From: Deltaproteobacteria bacterium
GTDB taxonomy: Bacteria; Desulfobacterota; GWC2-55-46
Length of the DNA stretch: 40,103 nt
Reading direction: 5' to 3'
NCBI GenBank assembly: GCA_016182655.1
Contig: JACPGB010000044.1
Coordinates: 1 to 40,103, forward strand
In this document: piece by piece, positions 1,638 to 31,377 of the stretch
Layout of the letters: every line of letters starts with the position of its first letter
How positions within the stretch are numbered: the stretch's first letter is position 1
The notes under the pieces: model-generated
Databases searched by the model: none
What the model was told of the DNA's origin: nothing
What the model saw: the letters and a program-made list of their open reading frames with translations, nothing else
Position numbers and translations under genes: made by a program

Positions 1638-1711
1638 TGGGTCGGATCTCCCGGCGCAAAAAAAACATGCGCCCAAGCCCCCTCCCTCGGGGGGCTTTAA
1701 TAAGGCGCTCA

Positions 1712-1905
1712 GGGCAGGTCTCCTGGCTTACGGGTCGTCCTACTCTCTTATCCTTCCCGGCTCGAAGCCAGTGGACAAGCTAAGATTTCGTCGCCGCTTA
1801 CAGTTGCGGGGCAGCTCCCGTCTCTAACGGGATTCCCTATTGCCCTTGCGGGCAACCCTGAACGCAATAAAGAGGAGTATAGGCTAACAGGTTCCGAAAC
1901 CTATC
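1712..1905 (-). promoter_or_regulatory. Cobalamin (B12) riboswitch upstream of cobO
   Basis: Read on the minus strand, the conserved pieces occur in order: GGTTTCGGAACC-type P1 pairing near 1893-1905, a GGGAATCCCG stem, GAGCTGCCCCGCAACTGTAA (the B12 core), CCACTGGCTTCGAGCCGGGAAGG, and the B12 box AAGCCAGGAGACCTGCC at 1713-1729. Aptamer length, element order and position before cobO all match the AdoCbl family. The downstream terminator at 1612-1637 provides the off switch. Ligand preference among cobalamins cannot be told from sequence. Confidence 0.95.
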
Positions 1906-3217: not shown

Positions 3218-3572
3218 GGGGGCGACCGGCTTCGACGGGACGAACTGATGCCGAGGGAAGCATACCGAGGTCCTGCCGCCTCGTTAAAAAGGTAGAAAAT
3301 AATAGTCGGCAACGACTATAACTACGCCCTGGCTGCCTAAAAGTCAGCCAGCGTCTGTCCTGCCTGCTCCCGCGGGGCTTGACGGACGTCACTTAGCGGG
3401 ATAGCTTTCGGGGCTCTGTCCGAAGGACCTGAAAGCGATACTCAACCGGGCTGGTCCTCACTGCTTGTTGCCTGTAATGGGCATGAGGACGAGACTCTAA
3501 TTACGGGCTAAGTATGTAGATGCCCCGGCTAAGCGTTTCCGGACGTGGGTTCGATTCCCACCGCCTCCACCA
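3218..3572 (+). ncRNA. ssrA: tmRNA (transfer-messenger RNA)
   Basis: Rescues ribosomes stalled on non-stop messages. The 5' end GGGGGCGACCGGCTTCGACG and 3' end GGGTTCGATTCCCACC...ACCA are diagnostic. The acceptor stem pairs GGGGGCG with CGCCTCC (one G-U pair), the T-arm GTGGGTTCGATTCCCAC is intact, and CCA is encoded. The resume codon is GGC at 3308-3310, and the tag reads GNDYNYALAA followed by TAA at 3338-3340, so the full tag on a rescued protein would be Ala plus that sequence. Length is about 355 nt, one-piece type. It begins with Gly rather than the Ala of E. coli. A strong hairpin follows at 3574-3621, and a partial copy of the 3' end lies 198 bp downstream. Confidence 0.97.
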
Positions 3573-22380: not shown

Positions 22381-22437
22381 CGCGGTTGTCCAAGCCGCGC
22401 CTATCGATTTCGATAGGCGGGACTTTCCAGTCCCGCC
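22381..22437. repeat. REP unit, left of the RAYT gene
   Basis: Successive hairpins: GCGGTTGTCCAAGCCGCGC, then CCTATCGA/TCGATAGG, then GCGGGACT/AGTCCCGC. The RAYT stop codon (22437-22439) abuts the last hairpin. Confidence 0.8.
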
Positions 22438-22898
22438 TAAAAGAGCATCTCTAAATCAGTCTCTTCTTGAAGTCTGAAGGAACTGTATTTGTATTCCTCT
22501 GGTTTTTCTACAAGCCCTTTCCTTACAGGGTTTTCCTCTATGTATCTTATCCTGCTCAAGACCTTTTCTTCTGTATCAAGGATGTGATCAAAAAAACCTC
22601 TTTGCCATAACGAGCCACGGCTTGACAGGAGCGTATTTATTCTCCTTGATGAAAACCCCTTTATGGATTTAACGCACTCGGAAATATTTTTATCTTTCGG
22701 AGTAATTATCATATGCAGGTGATCAGGCATTATGACGAAGGCGAATATATAATACCAACCCTGTTTTCTCCCGAATAATACCGCTTCCAAAAGGATGTCT
22801 GAAGGAGCCGCATCGGCGAATACCAGCCTCCTTTCATGAGTTACAGCCGTCACCATATAGGGATAATGATTTATATGTAGATGTTTCAATGAAGGCAT
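22437..22898 (-). CDS. REP-associated tyrosine transposase (RAYT, Y1/IS200-like)
   Basis: 153 residues from ATG 22898 (a GTG at 22904 would add two). The HUH metal motif is His60 and His62 in IMPDHLHMIIT, and the catalytic Tyr119 is in RYIEENPVRKG, at the place of Tyr115 in E. coli TnpA-REP. LWQRGFFDHIL is the other family mark. All essential residues are present. These enzymes nick single-stranded REP hairpins. The gene is much poorer in GC than its surroundings and is flanked by two direct copies of a REP unit, so it forms a self-contained RAYT/REP module. No clear ribosome site. Confidence 0.93.
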   Translation of the reverse strand: MPSLKHLHINHYPYMVTAVTHERRLVFADAAPSDILLEAVLFGRKQGWYYIFAFVIMPDHLHMIITPKDKNISECVKSIKGFSSRRINTLLSSRGSLWQRGFFDHILDTEEKVLSRIRYIEENPVRKGLVEKPEEYKYSSFRLQEETDLEMLF

Positions 22899-22913
22899 AT
22901 ACACTGTGGTCGA

Positions 22914-22993: not shown

Positions 22994-22994
<1 letters not shown>
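22914..22994. repeat. REP unit, right of the RAYT gene
   Basis: Same three-part unit as 22381-22437 and in the same orientation, but with about 24 extra bases in the loop of the CCTATCGA/TCGATAGG hairpin. Its last base is the first base of the ligA stop triplet (22994-22996). Confidence 0.8.
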
Positions 22995-25111
<2,117 letters not shown>

Positions 25112-25163: not shown

Positions 25164-25195
25164 TGTTGATTTTTTTTAATACTGGCACTATAATG
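25164..25195 (+). promoter_or_regulatory. Strong promoter of the cytochrome array
   Basis: TTGATT, 17-bp spacer and a perfect TATAAT (ending about 25195), followed by GGGGGCGAA. It sits in a very AT-rich stretch that differs from the surrounding DNA. Transcription should begin near 25200. Confidence 0.75.
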
Positions 25196-25199
25196 GGGG

Positions 25200-25295
25200 C
25201 GAATTAGCACCTTAAGACTGAAGGCGGTATTAAGGTTCAAAGGCGAAGATTGCCGAAAGGCGTCCGAAAGGACGGCCTCTTCGGCTTTTTTTTTT
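25200..25295 (+). ncRNA. Structured leader RNA with intrinsic terminator ahead of the cytochrome array
   Basis: About 95 nt between the predicted transcription start and a strong terminator. An upstream stem ACCTTAA/TTAAGGT (25209-25215 and 25229-25235) encloses GACTGAAGGCGG. Then GGTTCAAAGGCGAAGATTGCC leads into the terminator: GCCGAA, AGGC, GTCCGAAAGGAC, GCCT and TTCGGC nest into a long stem, followed by T10 (25286-25295). AGGC/GCC pairing just upstream could compete with the terminator base. The layout is that of an attenuator or riboswitch. I could not match it to a class I know, including c-di-GMP-I. The first cytochrome ATG is 26 nt beyond the T run. Confidence 0.55.
25252..25295 (+). 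terminator. Terminator hairpin in the cytochrome leader
   Basis: Stem GCCGAA-AGGC-GTCC with a GAAA tetraloop, closed by GGAC-G-GCCT-C-TTCGGC, followed by ten Ts. A very strong intrinsic terminator placed between promoter and coding region. Confidence 0.85.
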
Positions 25296-25320: not shown

Positions 25321-26298
25321 ATGGACAGAATTCTACAGATCACGAAAGGGGCCCTGTCTCTCCTCTCGGCCGTACTCCTCGCCTCGGCCCCGGCCTTCGG
25401 CGCGACAATCGCCGATTATCCGGCTGGTGTCGCCGCAAGCGGTATTGCAGGTACGAGGCACAACATGGGCTCGCTCGGCAGGGTAATAACCTCCACCGCC
25501 ACGTCCGAGATCTGCGTTTTCTGCCACACCCCGCACCACACGAATACGGCCAACGGCCTTAAACCCATGTGGAACAGGGGGACCTCGGCCCCGACGGCTT
25601 ACACCGCCTATGGCGCGACCATCGGCGGCTCGACCATAAACAACACGGACATAGGCTCGACCTCGCTCGCCTGCCTGTCCTGTCACGACGGCGTCACGAC
25701 CTGGGACAACATAGTAAACGCGCCCGGCAAGGGCGGCGTCGTGAACGGCGGCTCGGACAGGGTCTGGCAATTCCAGATGCCGATAGCCAGTTTCGGGATG
25801 CCGTCGTCCGTCATCGACCACTTCTCGACGAGCGTTATGAGTTGCGGCGCCTGCCATACGGCCGCCCTGATTACAAGGCTTAATATAGGCATGGACCTCT
25901 CAAACGACCACCCGGTATCCGTCACCTACAATACGGACCGGGCGGGGTTACGGGCAACGAACACCACAATAAACTCGATAGACCTGACAAGCGAGCTCGC
26001 CTCTTCGGCGGCCACCGCCTTCAACGGCAACCTCTCGCAGAACAGGTGGGCGGTAAAGGGCTTCGTATCCGATACGGCGACTATCGCAGACCTTCTCCGC
26101 GACGGAAAGGTCGAGTGCTCATCATGCCACGATCCGCACTTCAATAACTTAAGCTGGGACGAGGCGGAGTCGACATGGACCGATGCCTGGACCGACTATT
26201 GCGGCAACATCGGCGAGGCCTGCACCGACGGCAACTTCCTCCGCAGGGTCGGCGGAAACACCGGAAGCGGCGTCTGCAGGACATGTCACGAAAAATAA
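25321..26298 (+). CDS. Pentaheme c-type cytochrome, paralogue 1
   Basis: 325 residues from ATG 25321 (GGGA 7 nt upstream); a TTG at 25294 would lie in the terminator T run and is unlikely. Signal peptide with cleavage near AFG-A (about 27). Five CxxCH haem sites: CVFCH (65-69), CLSCH, CGACH, CSSCH and the C-terminal CRTCHEK. Invariant extra His residues (TRHNMG, TPHH, DHFST, DHPVSV, DPHF) could be distal ligands. A Cys pair CGNIGEAC lies before the last haem. It is first of five tandem paralogues, closest to paralogue 5 in the middle region. It is presumably exported and electron-transferring; the family is not one I can name. Confidence 0.9.
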   Translation: MDRILQITKGALSLLSAVLLASAPAFGATIADYPAGVAASGIAGTRHNMGSLGRVITSTATSEICVFCHTPHHTNTANGLKPMWNRGTSAPTAYTAYGATIGGSTINNTDIGSTSLACLSCHDGVTTWDNIVNAPGKGGVVNGGSDRVWQFQMPIASFGMPSSVIDHFSTSVMSCGACHTAALITRLNIGMDLSNDHPVSVTYNTDRAGLRATNTTINSIDLTSELASSAATAFNGNLSQNRWAVKGFVSDTATIADLLRDGKVECSSCHDPHFNNLSWDEAESTWTDAWTDYCGNIGEACTDGNFLRRVGGNTGSGVCRTCHEK

Positions 26299-26316
26299 TC
26301 CGAATTGGAGTTTCTT

Positions 26317-27300
26317 ATGAAAAGGCCGATCAAAACACTCTTCCTTGCCTCCGCGATAGCGCTCATCGCCTCCCCGGCCTTTTCGGCGAGCGTCAACGAC
26401 TACCCGGCGGGGCTCGCGGCGAGCGGCATAGCAGGCTCAAGGCATAACCTGGGCTCCATGGGAAAGGTAATCAGAACTACGGCCACGACCGAAATATGCG
26501 TATTCTGCCACACCCCGCACCACGCGAACACGGCGAACGGCCTTAAGCCCATGTGGAACAGGGGGACCTCGGCGCCCACATCGTACACCGCTTACGGCGC
26601 GACCATCGGCGGCACTACCGTAAGCAACACCGACATAGGCTCGACCTCGCTTGCCTGCTTAAGCTGTCACGACGGCGTCATGACCTTCGACAATATAGTC
26701 AACGCCCCAGGCAAGGGCGGCGTCGTAAACGGCGGCTCTGACAGGGGCTGGCTTTTTGCAATGCCCTTCGTCAACGAATTCATCCCCCCGGCCACCTACA
26801 ACCACAAGTTCGATACCAGCGACCCCTGGACATGCGTCGTCTGCCACGGCGTCTCAAGGCCTGCCGAGAGGCTCTCTCTCGGCATGGACCTCTCGAACGA
26901 CCACCCGGTCTCTGTCGCCTATAATTCCGATCGGGCGGGACTCCGGCCCACTAACACCATTATCAACTCAATAGACCTCACAAGCGAGCTCGCGTCATCC
27001 GCCGCAGGCTACGCATCCGGCAACCTCGCCCAGAACAGGTGGGCGGTAAAAGGGTTTGTATCCGACACCGCGACCATCGCCGATCTTCTCCGCGACGGCA
27101 AGGTCGAGTGCTCCTCGTGCCACGACCCTCATTTCAAGAACATGAGCTGGGACGAGGTCGAGGGGACCTACACATGGAACCCCGATCAGAACCTTCCCTG
27201 GACCTGGTGCTCGGGCGAGAACTGCTCTGACGGCCAGTTCCTGAGGCGCGTCGGCGGCAACACCGGCTCGGGTGTATGCAGGACATGCCACGAGAAATAG
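26317..27300 (+). CDS. Pentaheme c-type cytochrome, paralogue 2
   Basis: 327 residues from ATG 26317 (GGAG 7 nt upstream), 18 bp after paralogue 1. Signal peptide MKRPIKTLFLASAIALIASP with cleavage near AFSA at about 22-24. Haem sites at 61-65 (CVFCH), 114-118 (CLSCH), 173-177 (CVVCH), 265-269 (CSSCH) and 321-325 (CRTCH). Candidate distal His: 43, 68, 69, 163, 196 and 272, all conserved across the five copies, enough for bis-His ligation of five haems. Cys298/Cys303 (CSGENC) are a conserved non-haem pair. The copy is closest to paralogue 3; differences cluster around haem III. Confidence 0.92.
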   Translation: MKRPIKTLFLASAIALIASPAFSASVNDYPAGLAASGIAGSRHNLGSMGKVIRTTATTEICVFCHTPHHANTANGLKPMWNRGTSAPTSYTAYGATIGGTTVSNTDIGSTSLACLSCHDGVMTFDNIVNAPGKGGVVNGGSDRGWLFAMPFVNEFIPPATYNHKFDTSDPWTCVVCHGVSRPAERLSLGMDLSNDHPVSVAYNSDRAGLRPTNTIINSIDLTSELASSAAGYASGNLAQNRWAVKGFVSDTATIADLLRDGKVECSSCHDPHFKNMSWDEVEGTYTWNPDQNLPWTWCSGENCSDGQFLRRVGGNTGSGVCRTCHEK

Positions 27301-27309
27301 GGACATCTT

Positions 27310-28293
27310 ATGAAAAAACCGATTAGAACACTCTTGCTGGCTTCCGCGATAGCGCTCATAGCCTCCCCGGCCCTCTCAGCGAGCGTCAACGACTACCCGG
27401 CAGGGCTCGCCGCGAGCGGGATCTCAGGCTCCAGGCACAACCTGGGCTCCATGGGTAAGGTCTTAAGATCGACCGCCACGACCGAGATCTGCGTCTTCTG
27501 CCATACCCCGCATCACTCGAACACAGCGAACGGCCTGAAACCGATGTGGAACAGGGGCACCTCCGCGCCTACGTCGTACACCGCTTACGGAGCGACCATC
27601 GGAGGCACGACGATAAACAATACCGATATCGGCTCCACATCTCTCGCCTGTCTCTCGTGCCATGACGGCGTCATGACCTTCGACAACATCGTGAACGCGC
27701 CGGGAAAAGACGGCGTCGTAAACGGCGGCTCGGACAGGGGCTGGACATTCACCATGCCCATAGTGTGGGAAGGCCTCACGACCTCCCCAACCCTCCATAA
27801 CTTCAATACCTCCAGCCCCATCACATGCATCATCTGCCACACCTACACAAGGCCCGCCGAGAGGCTCTCTCTGGGACTGAACCTCTCGAACGACCACCCG
27901 GTCTCCGTTGCATACAGCGCCGACCGTGCGGGCTTGAGGGCCACGAACACCACCATCAACTCGATAGACCTCGCAAGCGAGCTCGCGTCATCCGCCGCCG
28001 GATACGCATCCGGCAACCTCGCCCAGAACCGCTGGGCGGTAAAAGGCTTTGTCTCCGACACCGCGACCATCGCCGATCTTCTCCGCGACGGCAAGGTCGA
28101 GTGCTCGTCTTGCCACGACCCTCACTTCAAGAACTCGAGCTGGGACGAGGTCGAGGGGACCTATACATGGAACCCGGACATGCTCACGAACTGGACATGG
28201 TGCTCGGGCGAGGACTGCTCTGACGGCCAGTTCCTTAGAAGGATCGGCGGCAATACCGGAAGCGGCGTCTGCCGGACATGCCACCAGAAGTAA
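27310..28293 (+). CDS. Pentaheme c-type cytochrome, paralogue 3
   Basis: 327 residues, 9 bp after paralogue 2 and nearly colinear with it. The signal peptide MKKPIRTLLLASAIALIASP and the haem sites CVFCH, CLSCH, CIICH, CSSCH and CRTCH (ending HQK) are kept. The segment before haem III differs (IVWEGLTTSPTLHNFNTSSP), while the preceding His is retained. The Cys pair is CSGEDC. High similarity to paralogue 2, including the signal peptide, suggests the most recent duplication of the array. A 127-bp gap with a composite repeat follows. Confidence 0.92.
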   Translation: MKKPIRTLLLASAIALIASPALSASVNDYPAGLAASGISGSRHNLGSMGKVLRSTATTEICVFCHTPHHSNTANGLKPMWNRGTSAPTSYTAYGATIGGTTINNTDIGSTSLACLSCHDGVMTFDNIVNAPGKDGVVNGGSDRGWTFTMPIVWEGLTTSPTLHNFNTSSPITCIICHTYTRPAERLSLGLNLSNDHPVSVAYSADRAGLRATNTTINSIDLASELASSAAGYASGNLAQNRWAVKGFVSDTATIADLLRDGKVECSSCHDPHFKNSSWDEVEGTYTWNPDMLTNWTWCSGEDCSDGQFLRRIGGNTGSGVCRTCHQK

Positions 28294-28420
28294 TCTCCGG
28301 CAGGGGGAAAGTGATGGTCCACATGAACCACCGCGCAGGGTATCTCCCCTGTCCCTACACCCATCAAGGAGGAGGGGATTAAAGACGCGGCAAGCCGCGG
28401 TATCAGCCCCTAAAGAGTGA
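28294..28420. repeat. Composite repeat between cytochrome paralogues 3 and 4
   Basis: A G-rich unit (CACCCATCAAGGAGGAGGGG) followed by ACGCGGCAAGCCGCGG, TATCAG and CCCCTAAAGAG. The same order recurs on the opposite strand at about 32660-32735. It divides the array and may weaken read-through into paralogue 4. Confidence 0.55.
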
Positions 28421-29422
28421 ATGAAGAACGCGCTCAGAATATTATTATTGGCCGGTGTTTTTACCATCGCCTGCGCCGAAGCCCATGCGGCTGCAGTCTC
28501 CGATTACCCTGCTGGCCTTGCCGCGAGCGGGATAGCCTCTTCAAGACACAACCTCGGCGGCTTCGGCAAGGTGCTCCACACTAACGCGACAACGGAGATC
28601 TGCGTCTTCTGCCACACACCGCACCATTCAAACGCAGGGCCCGGCTCAGGGCCCCTCTGGAACAGGTCCAACTCGTCATCGGCCTCATACTCGGGATACG
28701 GCGCGACGATCGGCGGCTCAAGTGTCGGCGCCCCTGGCGGCGCGACCCTCGCATGTCTCAGTTGCCACGACGGCGTAACGACATTCGATAACATCGTGAA
28801 CGCCCCTGGCAAGGGCGGCCTCTCCGCTACGCCTGGCGTGGGCGAGAACAAGACATGGATATTCAGGATGCCTATAGAGACCATGGGAGCGGCCTCACAG
28901 AATCATGACTTTTTCAACACCGCTCTCAGCGGCCCCGGCACATGCGCAAACTGCCATAGCGGCGATAACCCGGCGGTAAGGCTCTCTCTCGGGACCGAGC
29001 TTTCAAACGACCACCCGGTCTCGGTCGCCTACAGCACGGACAGGGCGGGCCTCCGGCCCACTAACACCACCATCAACGCTATCGACCTCACAAGCGAGCT
29101 CGCCTCGTCCGCCGGAGCCTACGCCTCCGGCAACCTCGCCCAGAACCGCTGGGCGGTGAAGGGCTTCATATCCGACACGGCGACAATAGCCGACCTCCTC
29201 CGGGACGGCAAGGTCGAGTGCACAAGCTGTCATGACCCGCACTTCAGGAACTTAAGCTGGGACGAGGTCGAGAGTTCCTGGACCTCTTATTGGGACGATG
29301 GCCAGATGATGCAGGTGGCGTACATGTACTGCACAGGCGAGGCCTGCACGGACGGCAACTTCCTCCGGAGAGTCGGCGGCAACACCGGAAGCGGTGTGTG
29401 CCGGACCTGCCACGAAAAATAA
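28421..29422 (+). CDS. Pentaheme c-type cytochrome, paralogue 4 (most divergent)
   Basis: 333 residues with signal peptide MKNALRILLLAGVFTIACAEA and AHA-A cleavage. The haem sites are CVFCH, CLSCH, CANCH, CTSCH and CRTCH. It differs from its siblings in the region between haems I and II (GPGSGPLWNRSNSSSASYSG) and in the longer haem II-III loop, and carries MMQVAYMYCTGEAC before haem V. Invariant His residues (SRHNLG, TPHH, NHDFF, DHPVSV, DPHF) remain. It starts after a 127-bp repeat gap and may have its own expression level. The C-terminal half is as conserved as in the others. Confidence 0.92.
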   Translation: MKNALRILLLAGVFTIACAEAHAAAVSDYPAGLAASGIASSRHNLGGFGKVLHTNATTEICVFCHTPHHSNAGPGSGPLWNRSNSSSASYSGYGATIGGSSVGAPGGATLACLSCHDGVTTFDNIVNAPGKGGLSATPGVGENKTWIFRMPIETMGAASQNHDFFNTALSGPGTCANCHSGDNPAVRLSLGTELSNDHPVSVAYSTDRAGLRPTNTTINAIDLTSELASSAGAYASGNLAQNRWAVKGFISDTATIADLLRDGKVECTSCHDPHFRNLSWDEVESSWTSYWDDGQMMQVAYMYCTGEACTDGNFLRRVGGNTGSGVCRTCHEK

Positions 29423-29441
29423 GTCGGATTAGAAACATCTT

Positions 29442-30434
29442 ATGAAAAGGTCTATTAAAACACTCTTTCTGGCGTCCGCGTTGGCGCTCATCTCCACACC
29501 GTCCTTCTCCGCAGGGGTAAACGACTACCCGGCTGGAGTCGCGGCAAGCGGGATAGCGGCCACCAGGCACAACATGGGGTCTCTCGGCTGGGTCATAAGG
29601 ACCACGGCCACGACCGAGATATGCGTATTCTGCCATACCCCGCACCACACGAATACGGCCAACGGCCTCAAACCCATGTGGAACAGGGGGACGGCCGCGC
29701 CGACATCCTACACGGCTTACGGCACGACCATCGGCGGCACGACTATAAGCAACACCGACATCGGCTCGACCACGCTCGCCTGCCTTTCATGCCATGACGG
29801 CGTCACGACCTTCGACAACATCGTCAACACCCCGGGAAAGGGCGGAGTCGTCAACGGCGGCTCGGACAGGGGCTGGCTCTTTGCAATGCCTCTCGCAAAT
29901 GAATTCGCCTGGGCACCCGCTACATGGATGCACAACTTCAATGCTGCGCCAGGGGCGTGTGGGTCATGCCACACGGCTGACCAGATCACGAGGCTTACCA
30001 TAGGCACCAGCCTTTCCGACGACCACCCTGTATCGGTTACATATAATGCCGACAGGGCGGGGTTGAGGGCGACAAATACCACTATAAACTCGATAGACCT
30101 GACAAGCGAGCTCGCCTCATCGGCGGCCTCGGCCTACAACAGCAACCTCTCCCAGAACAGGTGGGCCGTCAAAGGGTTCATTTCCGATTCTGCAACGATA
30201 GCCGACCTCTTGAAAGACGGCAAGGTCGAGTGCTCCTCCTGCCACGACCCGCACTTCAACAACTTAAGCTGGGATGAGGCCGAGCCCACATGGGGCGAGA
30301 TTATGTCCCCGCTTTCCGGTGACCAGGCCACCTGGTGCGGCAATAATGGAGAGGATTGCACCGACGGCAACTTCCTCCGGAGAGTCGGAGGCAACACCGG
30401 TTCAGGCGTCTGCAGGACATGCCACCAGAAATAA
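29442..30434 (+). CDS. Pentaheme c-type cytochrome, paralogue 5
   Basis: 330 residues with signal peptide MKRSIKTLFLASALALISTP. The haem sites are CVFCH, CLSCH, CGSCH, CSSCH and CRTCH. The haem III segment GSCHTADQITRL and the NNLSWDEAE block match paralogue 1, whereas the signal peptide matches paralogue 2, so copies seem to have exchanged parts or diverged unevenly. The Cys pair is CGNNGEDC. It is the last gene of the array; the next gene is ribosomal and has its own promoter. Confidence 0.92.
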   Translation: MKRSIKTLFLASALALISTPSFSAGVNDYPAGVAASGIAATRHNMGSLGWVIRTTATTEICVFCHTPHHTNTANGLKPMWNRGTAAPTSYTAYGTTIGGTTISNTDIGSTTLACLSCHDGVTTFDNIVNTPGKGGVVNGGSDRGWLFAMPLANEFAWAPATWMHNFNAAPGACGSCHTADQITRLTIGTSLSDDHPVSVTYNADRAGLRATNTTINSIDLTSELASSAASAYNSNLSQNRWAVKGFISDSATIADLLKDGKVECSSCHDPHFNNLSWDEAEPTWGEIMSPLSGDQATWCGNNGEDCTDGNFLRRVGGNTGSGVCRTCHQK

Positions 30435-30464: not shown

Positions 30465-30493
30465 TTGACAATATCCCGAAAATCATATATTTT
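30465..30493 (+). promoter_or_regulatory. Promoter of rplM-rpsI
   Basis: TTGACA (30465-30470) followed by TATATTTT (30486-30493) at 15-17 bp spacing, in AT-rich sequence, about 35 bp before the rplM start. Confidence 0.6.
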
Positions 30494-30525: not shown

Positions 30526-30954
30526 ATGAAGACATTTATTCCGAAAATCGAAGTTAACGCAAAGAAGTGGTACCTCGTGGACGTAAACGGCAAGACCCTC
30601 GGTAGGGTCGCGACACAGATAGCCGCGATACTTCGCGGCAAGCACAAGCCGACTTTCACCCCGCACCTCGACACCGGCGACTTCGTAGTCGTCGTGAACG
30701 CCGAAAAGGTCGGTTTCACGGGGAACAAATCCACTGACAAGATATACTACCACCACACAATGTACCCGAACGGCCTCAAGGCCAAGTCGCTCGGCAAGGT
30801 CCTCGAGGATACGCCCGAAGACGCCCTTAAAAAGGCGGTCTGGGGCATGCTCCCCAAGGGCAGGCTCGGCAGGGACATGTACAAGAAGCTCAAGGTATAC
30901 ACCGGGACGGCGCATCCGCACAAGGCGCAGTCGCCCGAGACGATTTCCTTATAA
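30526..30954 (+). CDS. rplM: Ribosomal protein L13
   Basis: 142 residues, the standard length, of the large-subunit protein that binds 23S rRNA early in assembly. Clear marks are WYLVDVNGKTLGRVAT, HLDTGDFVVVVNAEKVGFTG, KIYYHHTMYPNG and AVWGMLPKGRLGRDMYKKLKVY. The ribosome site GGGGA lies about 8 nt upstream. It is followed 33 bp later by rpsI, the usual bacterial pair. Confidence 0.98.
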   Translation: MKTFIPKIEVNAKKWYLVDVNGKTLGRVATQIAAILRGKHKPTFTPHLDTGDFVVVVNAEKVGFTGNKSTDKIYYHHTMYPNGLKAKSLGKVLEDTPEDALKKAVWGMLPKGRLGRDMYKKLKVYTGTAHPHKAQSPETISL

Positions 30955-30987
30955 TCCGATTTCACCATTATTGGGGGTTACAAAGCA

Positions 30988-31377
30988 ATGGCAGACGTAT
31001 TCAGCGCAGTAGGAAGACGCAAGACATCGGTTGCGAGGGTAAGGTTGCTACCCGGCGCGGGCGAGATAACCGTTAACGAAAAGGCCTACTCGGCCTTCTT
31101 CAGCCGCGAGACCTTGAGGGGCATCGTAAGACAGCCCCTTGAGCTCACCAACAATGTCGGCAAGTTCAACGTCGTCGCGAACGTCGACGGCGGCGGGGAA
31201 AGCGGCCAGGCAGGGGCCGTAAGGCACGGGATCGCGAGAGCCCTCCTCGTATCGGACGCGTCCTTGAGGGGCGTCCTCAAGAAGGCCGGGCTTCTGACCA
31301 GGGACCCGAGGATGAAGGAAAGAAAGAAGTACGGGCAGAAGGGCGCAAGGAAGAGGTTCCAGTTCTCCAAGAGGTAA
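30988..31377 (+). CDS. rpsI: Ribosomal protein S9
   Basis: 129 residues, complete, of the small-subunit protein whose C-terminal tail reaches the P-site tRNA. Marks: [20 protein letters not shown] at the N-terminus, [20 protein letters not shown] in the middle, and the basic tail [25 protein letters not shown] with the conserved Lys-Arg end. Co-transcribed with rplM; a GNRA-loop terminator follows at 31510-31537. Confidence 0.98.

Follow-up and report, generated by a model that had tools for sequence, protein, structure and literature searches.

What do five near-equal cytochrome genes in a row encode, and how are they controlled? The question is raised by a contig of Deltaproteobacteria bacterium (Desulfobacterota, GWC2-55-46; GenBank assembly GCA_016182655.1, JACPGB010000044.1), of which positions 1 to 40,103, the whole stretch of 40,103 nucleotides that was analysed, are called the window here. 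An earlier note, made from the letters of the window, had described a tandem array of five pentahaem cytochrome genes at 25321-30434 and had speculated on a likeness of their products to the filament-forming cytochromes OmcS and OmcE. We propose, with a probability of roughly 0.55, that the array encodes secreted, filament-forming pentahaem variants of OmcE under the control of a transcription-attenuating leader RNA, which possibly senses cyclic di-GMP (c-di-GMP). The source genome, that of an uncultured groundwater bacterium, comprises 2.9 Mb in 60 contigs and is 97.6% complete (the array contig is G000:C53; other contigs of this genome are cited by their C numbers, and compared loci by their L numbers). 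Most of the compared genomes are metagenome bins.

Five intact genes for exported pentahaem cytochromes

The array (25321-30434, forward strand) consists of five tandem open reading frames (ORFs), all intact, each with five CxxCH motifs in register:

25321..26298, + strand, copy 1 (B-type), pentahaem OmcE-family cytochrome of 325 residues; insert 25765-25875, haem III motif 25843-25857
26317..27300, + strand, copy 2 (A-type), 327 residues; insert 26749-26868, haem III motif 26833-26847
27310..28293, + strand, copy 3 (A-type), 327 residues; insert 27742-27861, haem III motif 27826-27840
28421..29422, + strand, copy 4 (divergent A-type), 333 residues; insert 28847-28978, haem III motif 28943-28957
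29442..30434, + strand, copy 5 (A-type left, B-type right), 330 residues; insert 29874-29990, haem III motif 29958-29972

Verification of the ORFs, signal sequences and registers bore out the description of five tandem, exported proteins of 325-333 residues with matching CxxCH positions. By inspection, all five copies carry an N-terminal signal sequence without a lipobox, and they are the only CxxCH-bearing ORFs of at least 60 residues in the window. Identity over the five copies ranges from 65 to 86% and, relative to copy 1, is 74, 73, 65 and 77% for copies 2, 3, 4 and 5, respectively. Because neither a terminator nor a promoter-like site was found between the copies, and because most gaps are short, their co-production is likely; the five copies are probably co-transcribed.

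The proportion of synonymous differences (pS) between copies was approximately 0.3-0.7, while that of nonsynonymous differences (pN) was mostly 0.04-0.14 in the segments from haem I to haem II and from the DHP histidine to haem IV, and this pattern reflects purifying selection. The array genes are old and functional. A recent duplication or gene conversion of the conserved half was rejected as an explanation, since synonymous sites are strongly diverged. As the earlier note had observed, variation is concentrated around haem III, where pN between copies reached 0.34-0.48 in the insert, and copy 4 is divergent between haems I and II (pN 0.21-0.24, versus 0.04-0.09 in other comparisons). Its description of a nearly invariant second half held only roughly, because residues 285-302, in the loop ahead of the last haem, form a second variable segment with a pN of 0.21-0.55.

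Homology to OmcE

The best match in the PDB was OmcE of Geobacter sulfurreducens (7tfs_A; E 2.8e-15 in a sequence search and 8.9e-16 with a profile), followed by 9YUQ, a "putative multiheme cytochrome c" (E 3.5e-12). Four CxxCH motifs and four histidines (H43, H68, H196 and H272 in copy 2 numbering) were invariant in 92/92 relatives from several phyla, and together they form the complete bis-histidine set of a tetrahaem cytochrome. One of the distal histidines lies near the N-terminus and is kept in every copy. OmcE (7TFS) has all eight elements, as seen through a family member that aligns over its whole length. On this evidence, the array proteins are almost certainly homologues of OmcE. Members of the OmcE family proper have exactly four haems, and we file the array as a pentahaem variant rather than as OmcE because every copy has five CxxCH motifs.

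The speculative likeness to OmcE was thus right at the sequence level, with haem sites and distal histidines kept. The likeness to OmcS did not hold at that level, as no OmcS entry appeared among the PDB sequence matches up to an E-value of 10. NrfB-like models scored well below their curated cut-off, and NrfB, TorC, MtrC and other multihaem families were rejected because their matches fell below the cut-offs. The relatives named in the genome scan, such as GWB2_55_19, were "Deltaproteobacteria" bins assembled from metagenomes of groundwater and sediment. In filaments of OmcE and of OmcS, one haem is coordinated by a histidine of the neighbouring subunit (PMC9473688). We consider it reasonably likely, from the homology, that the array proteins form filaments as well.

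The fifth haem as an inserted module

Tetrahaem members of the family do not have the variable segment of the array copies, and OmcE aligns with the tetrahaem form. In pentahaem members, this segment is inserted between haem II and the DHP histidine of the tetrahaem core and brings one proximal and one probable distal ligand: the haem III CxxCH was found in 29 of 31 pentahaem members, and the haem III histidine in 28 of these 31 versus none of 61 tetrahaem members. A pair of cysteines in the loop before the last haem was present in 31/35 members with a haem-like insert versus 2/58 without one, although few of these comparisons are phylogenetically independent. Placed on the family tree, the haem III character needs about five changes. 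These distributions indicate that the fifth haem is very probably an inserted accessory module. What varies around haem III in the copies is therefore an accessory haem module. The idea of redox tuning in the earlier note, taken with the variation around haem III, is sharpened to an inserted extra haem, which neither OmcE nor the tetrahaem paralogues have. On its fast-evolving loop, haem III would serve as a side or contact haem and not as part of the central chain; we give such a lateral position slightly less than even odds.

Two variants of this region were also observed. Six members (L041, L051, L053, L072, L118 and L121) have CX3CH or CX4CH at haem III; they keep the extra cysteine pair, and most are without an evident distal histidine in the insert. 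In the tetrahaem paralogue at L103 8714-9748 (reverse strand; G000:C52), a long insert that lacks CxxCH occupies the haem III position.

History of the array

The array stands between genes that lie outside the system:

22994..25078, - strand, ligA, left flank (assigned by synteny)
30526..31377, + strand, rplM and rpsI, right flank (assigned by synteny), with a promoter-like site in front at 30465-30493

This place, ligA-[pentahaem]n-rplM-rpsI-argC, is conserved: three sister species have a single pentahaem gene there (n = 1), a fourth has two and the genome under study has five. The search for the array in related genomes that the earlier note had proposed recovered these syntenic genes but no other array of at least three genes among 30 genomes of the family and 297 of the phylum, many of which are fragmented. 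Copies 2-4 group, in the tree and by their inserts, with the single genes of L026 and L027 and the first gene of L024 (A type), and the insert of copy 1 is closest to that of the second L024 gene (B type), which suggests that two gene types are present in the array. Copy 5 arose by recombination: its left part is A-like, its right part is B-like, and the break falls within the haem III insert at about residue 174 (maximum chi-square 29.8, permutation p 0.0005). Judged by these relationships, the array goes back to an old expansion with some recombination among its copies.

The single syntenic gene of one sister species (L025 2009-2998) is itself a mosaic of a copy-1-like signal sequence and sequence like that of the solo pentahaem gene on C32. 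Close to the array, the window also holds a gene for an IS200-like, RAYT-type transposase (Y1_Tnp; 22437-22904, reverse strand).

Paralogues and likely partners elsewhere in the genome

The genome has five further genes of the family: a solo pentahaem gene (C32), two tandem tetrahaem genes (C30) and single tetrahaem genes on C4 and C52. The neighbours of the C30 pair encode a trihaem c7-type lipoprotein, an NHL propeller lipoprotein, a TPR membrane protein, a SurA-type prolyl isomerase, a dihaem-FGE protein, an FGE lipoprotein and a 667-residue protein that is without a Pfam match and resembles an outer-membrane barrel. A core set of c7, NHL, OmcE-like and peptidyl-prolyl isomerase genes recurs across the bacterial family. 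The earlier statement that no partner is encoded nearby holds for the window, but other parts of the genome have genes for likely partners. No MtrB-type porin was found in the genome.

The dihaem-FGE (sulfatase-modifying factor) fusion (L101 6149-7138, reverse strand, G000:C30; relatives in L036, L037, L040, L048, L072 and L183) is conserved in the OmcE-like operon beside the FGE lipoprotein and the barrel-like protein of 667-687 residues without a Pfam match. At another locus (L180 8229-10734, reverse strand, G289:C26), a pair of pentahaem genes that belong to this cytochrome family lies near ResB/CcsA-like cytochrome c biogenesis genes, which were recognised by eye.

A leader RNA upstream of the array

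The region upstream of copy 1 contains a promoter, a conserved RNA element and a terminator; this leader had escaped the earlier note. The element was described with R1, a covariance model built from 23 leaders, that of the window among them; the E-values of R1 are rough:

25166..25194, + strand, sigma-70-like promoter of the array, TTGATT-17-TATAAT (consensus scan)
25204..25254, + strand, leader element with a P1 stem, a P2 hairpin with a conserved loop and a GGC(GAAGATT)GCC segment (R1 E 4e-8; fold z -3.6)
25250..25291, + strand, intrinsic terminator, TTGCCGAAAGG...CCTCTTCGGC and then a T run, between the promoter and copy 1 (sequence and folding)

The leader RNA including the terminator extends over 25204-25286. 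The same layout of promoter, leader and terminator precedes the genes on C32, C30 and C4 and most relatives, and in this bacterial family the leader stands before almost all OmcE-family genes. In 51/54 leader elements, a -10-like box is located no more than 60 nt upstream. R1 matched 59 places in one megabase of loci at E-values up to 0.1. An OmcE-family gene followed within 900 nt in 55 of the 57 places examined, including all 32 outside the training set, and the GGC-T6 terminator pattern was kept in 50 of the 57 elements. Within the family, matches occurred in 27/30 genomes, the very 27 that have OmcE-family genes. Matches in G130 and G173 were without the T-run terminator and were taken as chance.

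P2 has some compensated pairs, and a 9-nt region of its loop (U-C-A-N-G-R-N-G-G) is nearly invariant. R1 aligned P1 poorly; the P1 strands nonetheless pair better than permuted ones (mean -5.5 versus -3.4 kcal/mol, z -8.3, a value uncorrected for relatedness and including some imperfect splits). Because the GCC strand is common to the GGC...GCC segment and the terminator, the GGC...GCC hairpin and the terminator are mutually exclusive. Tandem elements are present at two loci (L144 and L151). The element combines conserved structure with an expression platform ahead of functionally related genes, and we hold with fairly high confidence that it is an attenuating cis-regulatory RNA. That it acts directly as a riboswitch has a little better than an even chance. 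The terminator fold suggests that its default state is OFF.

The element was previously uncatalogued. In Rfam, the leader of the window and one leader of a GGDEF gene had no match up to an E-value of 10, and two other leaders had only chance-level matches; GEMM, cobalamin and other Rfam riboswitches were rejected as its identity, since none matched. The tetrahaem gene on C52 (L103) has a different terminator-like leader that R1 does not match.

Link to a diguanylate cyclase

The remaining R1 matches in the family lie upstream of two other kinds of gene: in six genomes a PocR-GAF-GGDEF gene, with an AAA ATPase gene after it, and in one genome a PilZ gene. In a search with that cyclase, the element was found directly upstream of 17 of 21 PocR-GAF-GGDEF diguanylate cyclase orthologues; in the genome under study, it lies on C24 at 46361-46405 and the cyclase gene at 46516-48048. 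Given the place of the leader before a diguanylate cyclase gene and, in one case, before a PilZ gene, a cyclic dinucleotide, likeliest c-di-GMP, is the candidate ligand. All of the GGDEF orthologues are canonical, with GGEEF, Asp at -26 and RxxD. GGEEF with Asp at -26 points to c-di-GMP rather than cyclic GMP-AMP (cGAMP) as the product (PMC6456294), and a Hypr (cGAMP) cyclase was rejected on these residues.

In Geobacter, GEMM-Ib cGAMP riboswitches stand before omcST and other cytochrome genes, often as tandem copies (PMC6456294). No GEMM element was found before the OmcE-like loci of Geobacteraceae that were examined. We tentatively suggest, from the genes that it precedes, that the leader is a riboswitch for c-di-GMP. 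Equally tentative is the wider proposal of a new riboswitch class of non-GEMM structure that would respond to c-di-GMP or a related dinucleotide and control both a whole set of OmcE-type nanowire genes, the five-gene array with its putative side haem among them, and the diguanylate cyclase that makes its ligand. The genome under study has a GEMM-I element on G000:C21 (23560-23694, forward strand), upstream of a roughly 600-residue reading frame for a fibronectin-like exported protein.

Proposed explanation and its alternatives

In the explanation that we favour, five co-transcribed, exported cytochromes would keep the four-haem bis-histidine core that in Geobacter polymerises into an extracellular haem wire. 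They would form extracellular OmcE-like filaments, or segments of them, and use assembly partners supplied in trans by the tetrahaem operon. In the leader RNA, either the intrinsic terminator would form, or its 5' arm would be held in the alternative GGC...GCC hairpin, and the choice would depend on sensing of a cyclic dinucleotide, with c-di-GMP as the likeliest one. An RNA sensor of this kind probably lets the cell turn its electron-conducting proteins on and off.

Several observations weigh against this explanation. An OmcE-like domain is also found at the N-terminus of an 11-haem protein (L104 8172-10454, reverse strand, G000:C6; also L178 and L179), whose conserved cluster encodes 6-, 4- and 4-haem proteins, an NHL lipoprotein and a propeller-like protein; because the domain occurs in this non-filament context, polymerisation is unproven by homology alone. 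The physiological role of cytochrome filaments is itself disputed (PMC11077965). AlphaFold2 models of copy 2, from alignments of 55 and 69 rows, reached a mean predicted local distance difference test score (pLDDT) of only 50 and 53, which makes them unusable for haem geometry; a Foldseek search with the poor model gave 7tfs as its top match (E 1.1e-3, prob 0.72), which we cite only for its agreement with the sequence match. As for the leader RNA, the GGDEF leaders have a weak P1 or none, and the classical GEMM-I c-di-GMP riboswitch is present, at one or two per genome, in 15/30 genomes of the family.

The 11-haem protein suits an alternative in which the array proteins are non-polymerising surface or secreted carriers. 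As OmcE-related monomers or small oligomers, they would shuttle electrons or reduce minerals, and the array would provide dosage. Similarly, of the several Geobacter OmcS paralogues, only OmcS is known as a wire (PMC12977616). We nevertheless regard such carriers as unlikely, given that every copy keeps all haem-ligating residues of OmcE, including the histidine near the N-terminus, and that the partner genes are similar in kind to what one would expect for the export of filaments. Five probably co-transcribed copies fit hetero-assembly, dosage or specialised homopolymers alike. A hetero-polymer, in which the copies would be different subunits of one filament and the variable haem III loops its junction or tuning elements, is favoured by the likely co-production and by pentahaem and tetrahaem genes that stand side by side in L061, L063 and L075. 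However, five different subunits are not required, since one or two copies suffice at this place in the sister species, and the recombinant copy 5 suggests interchangeability rather than fixed stoichiometry; we consider this alternative improbable. Also improbable is the proposal that the haem III loop is an exposed segment diversifying under phage or protist pressure, with the array as a recombination reservoir rather than a means of redox tuning. The restriction of high pN to the insert and a single further loop would fit it, as would the break inside the copy 5 insert and the mosaic gene of L025, but pentahaem inserts nearly always keep their CxxCH and histidine, and the insert is therefore constrained as a haem site.

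The leader could also be a protein-dependent attenuator, controlled by an RNA-binding antiterminator or a CsrA-like regulator, instead of a riboswitch. Some members have a CsrA-site-like GGAU in the loop of the GGC...GCC hairpin. This GGA is not conserved, as the loop reads GGCGAAGATTGCC in the window and GGCGATGGTGCC in the C32 leader, and a CsrA site was rejected for that reason. The near-invariance of the P2 loop region and the tandem elements of L144 and L151, an arrangement known from many riboswitches, also speak against protein-dependent attenuation, which we think unlikely.

Comparison with known systems

The array proteins are colinear with OmcE (7TFS) and share with it the four CxxCH motifs, the four distal histidines, export and the lack of a lipobox. 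They differ from the tetrahaem OmcE in being about 100 residues longer, in the fifth haem with its own histidine, in the extra cysteine pair and in the tandem arrangement; OmcE forms filaments, and for the array proteins such filaments are proposed. The haem and histidine order of 9YUQ (16 chains of 218 residues) is the same as far as it aligns, but this protein is tetrahaem and shorter than the array copies. The omcS/omcT/GSU2501 operon with its eight-gene OmcS secretion block (PMC12977616) likewise combines tandem filament-type paralogues with nanowire-linked assembly genes; its cytochromes are hexahaem and without sequence similarity to the array, which lies apart from its putative assembly genes. 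The pentahaem PHC/ExtKL cytochromes of cable bacteria and Geobacter (PMC11976967), for which a relation to nanowires has been proposed, have five haems as well but form a separate family without a sequence match to the array.

GEMM-Ib cGAMP and GEMM-I c-di-GMP riboswitches (PMC6456294, RF01051) resemble the array leader in their place before extracellular cytochrome genes, their use of terminators, their tandem copies and their link to GGDEF proteins. The array leader differs from them in its own consensus, GGYUCANGRNGGGYC + GGCGAUGR-UGCC, and in the lack of an Rfam match; it parallels the cGAMP riboswitches of Geobacter without being homologous to them as far as tested. The array bears on how far nanowire-type cytochromes reach beyond Geobacter and on whether such wires can carry side haems; the second question can be tested directly with a pentahaem OmcE variant whose fifth-haem module is separable. 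The leader is compact, strongly conserved and tied to cytochromes and a diguanylate cyclase; if our explanation is true, it would be a new RNA class that links second-messenger signalling with extracellular electron transfer.

Elsewhere in the window, we observed a tmRNA at 3218-3572 (forward strand) and a cobalamin riboswitch at 1696-1875 (reverse strand).

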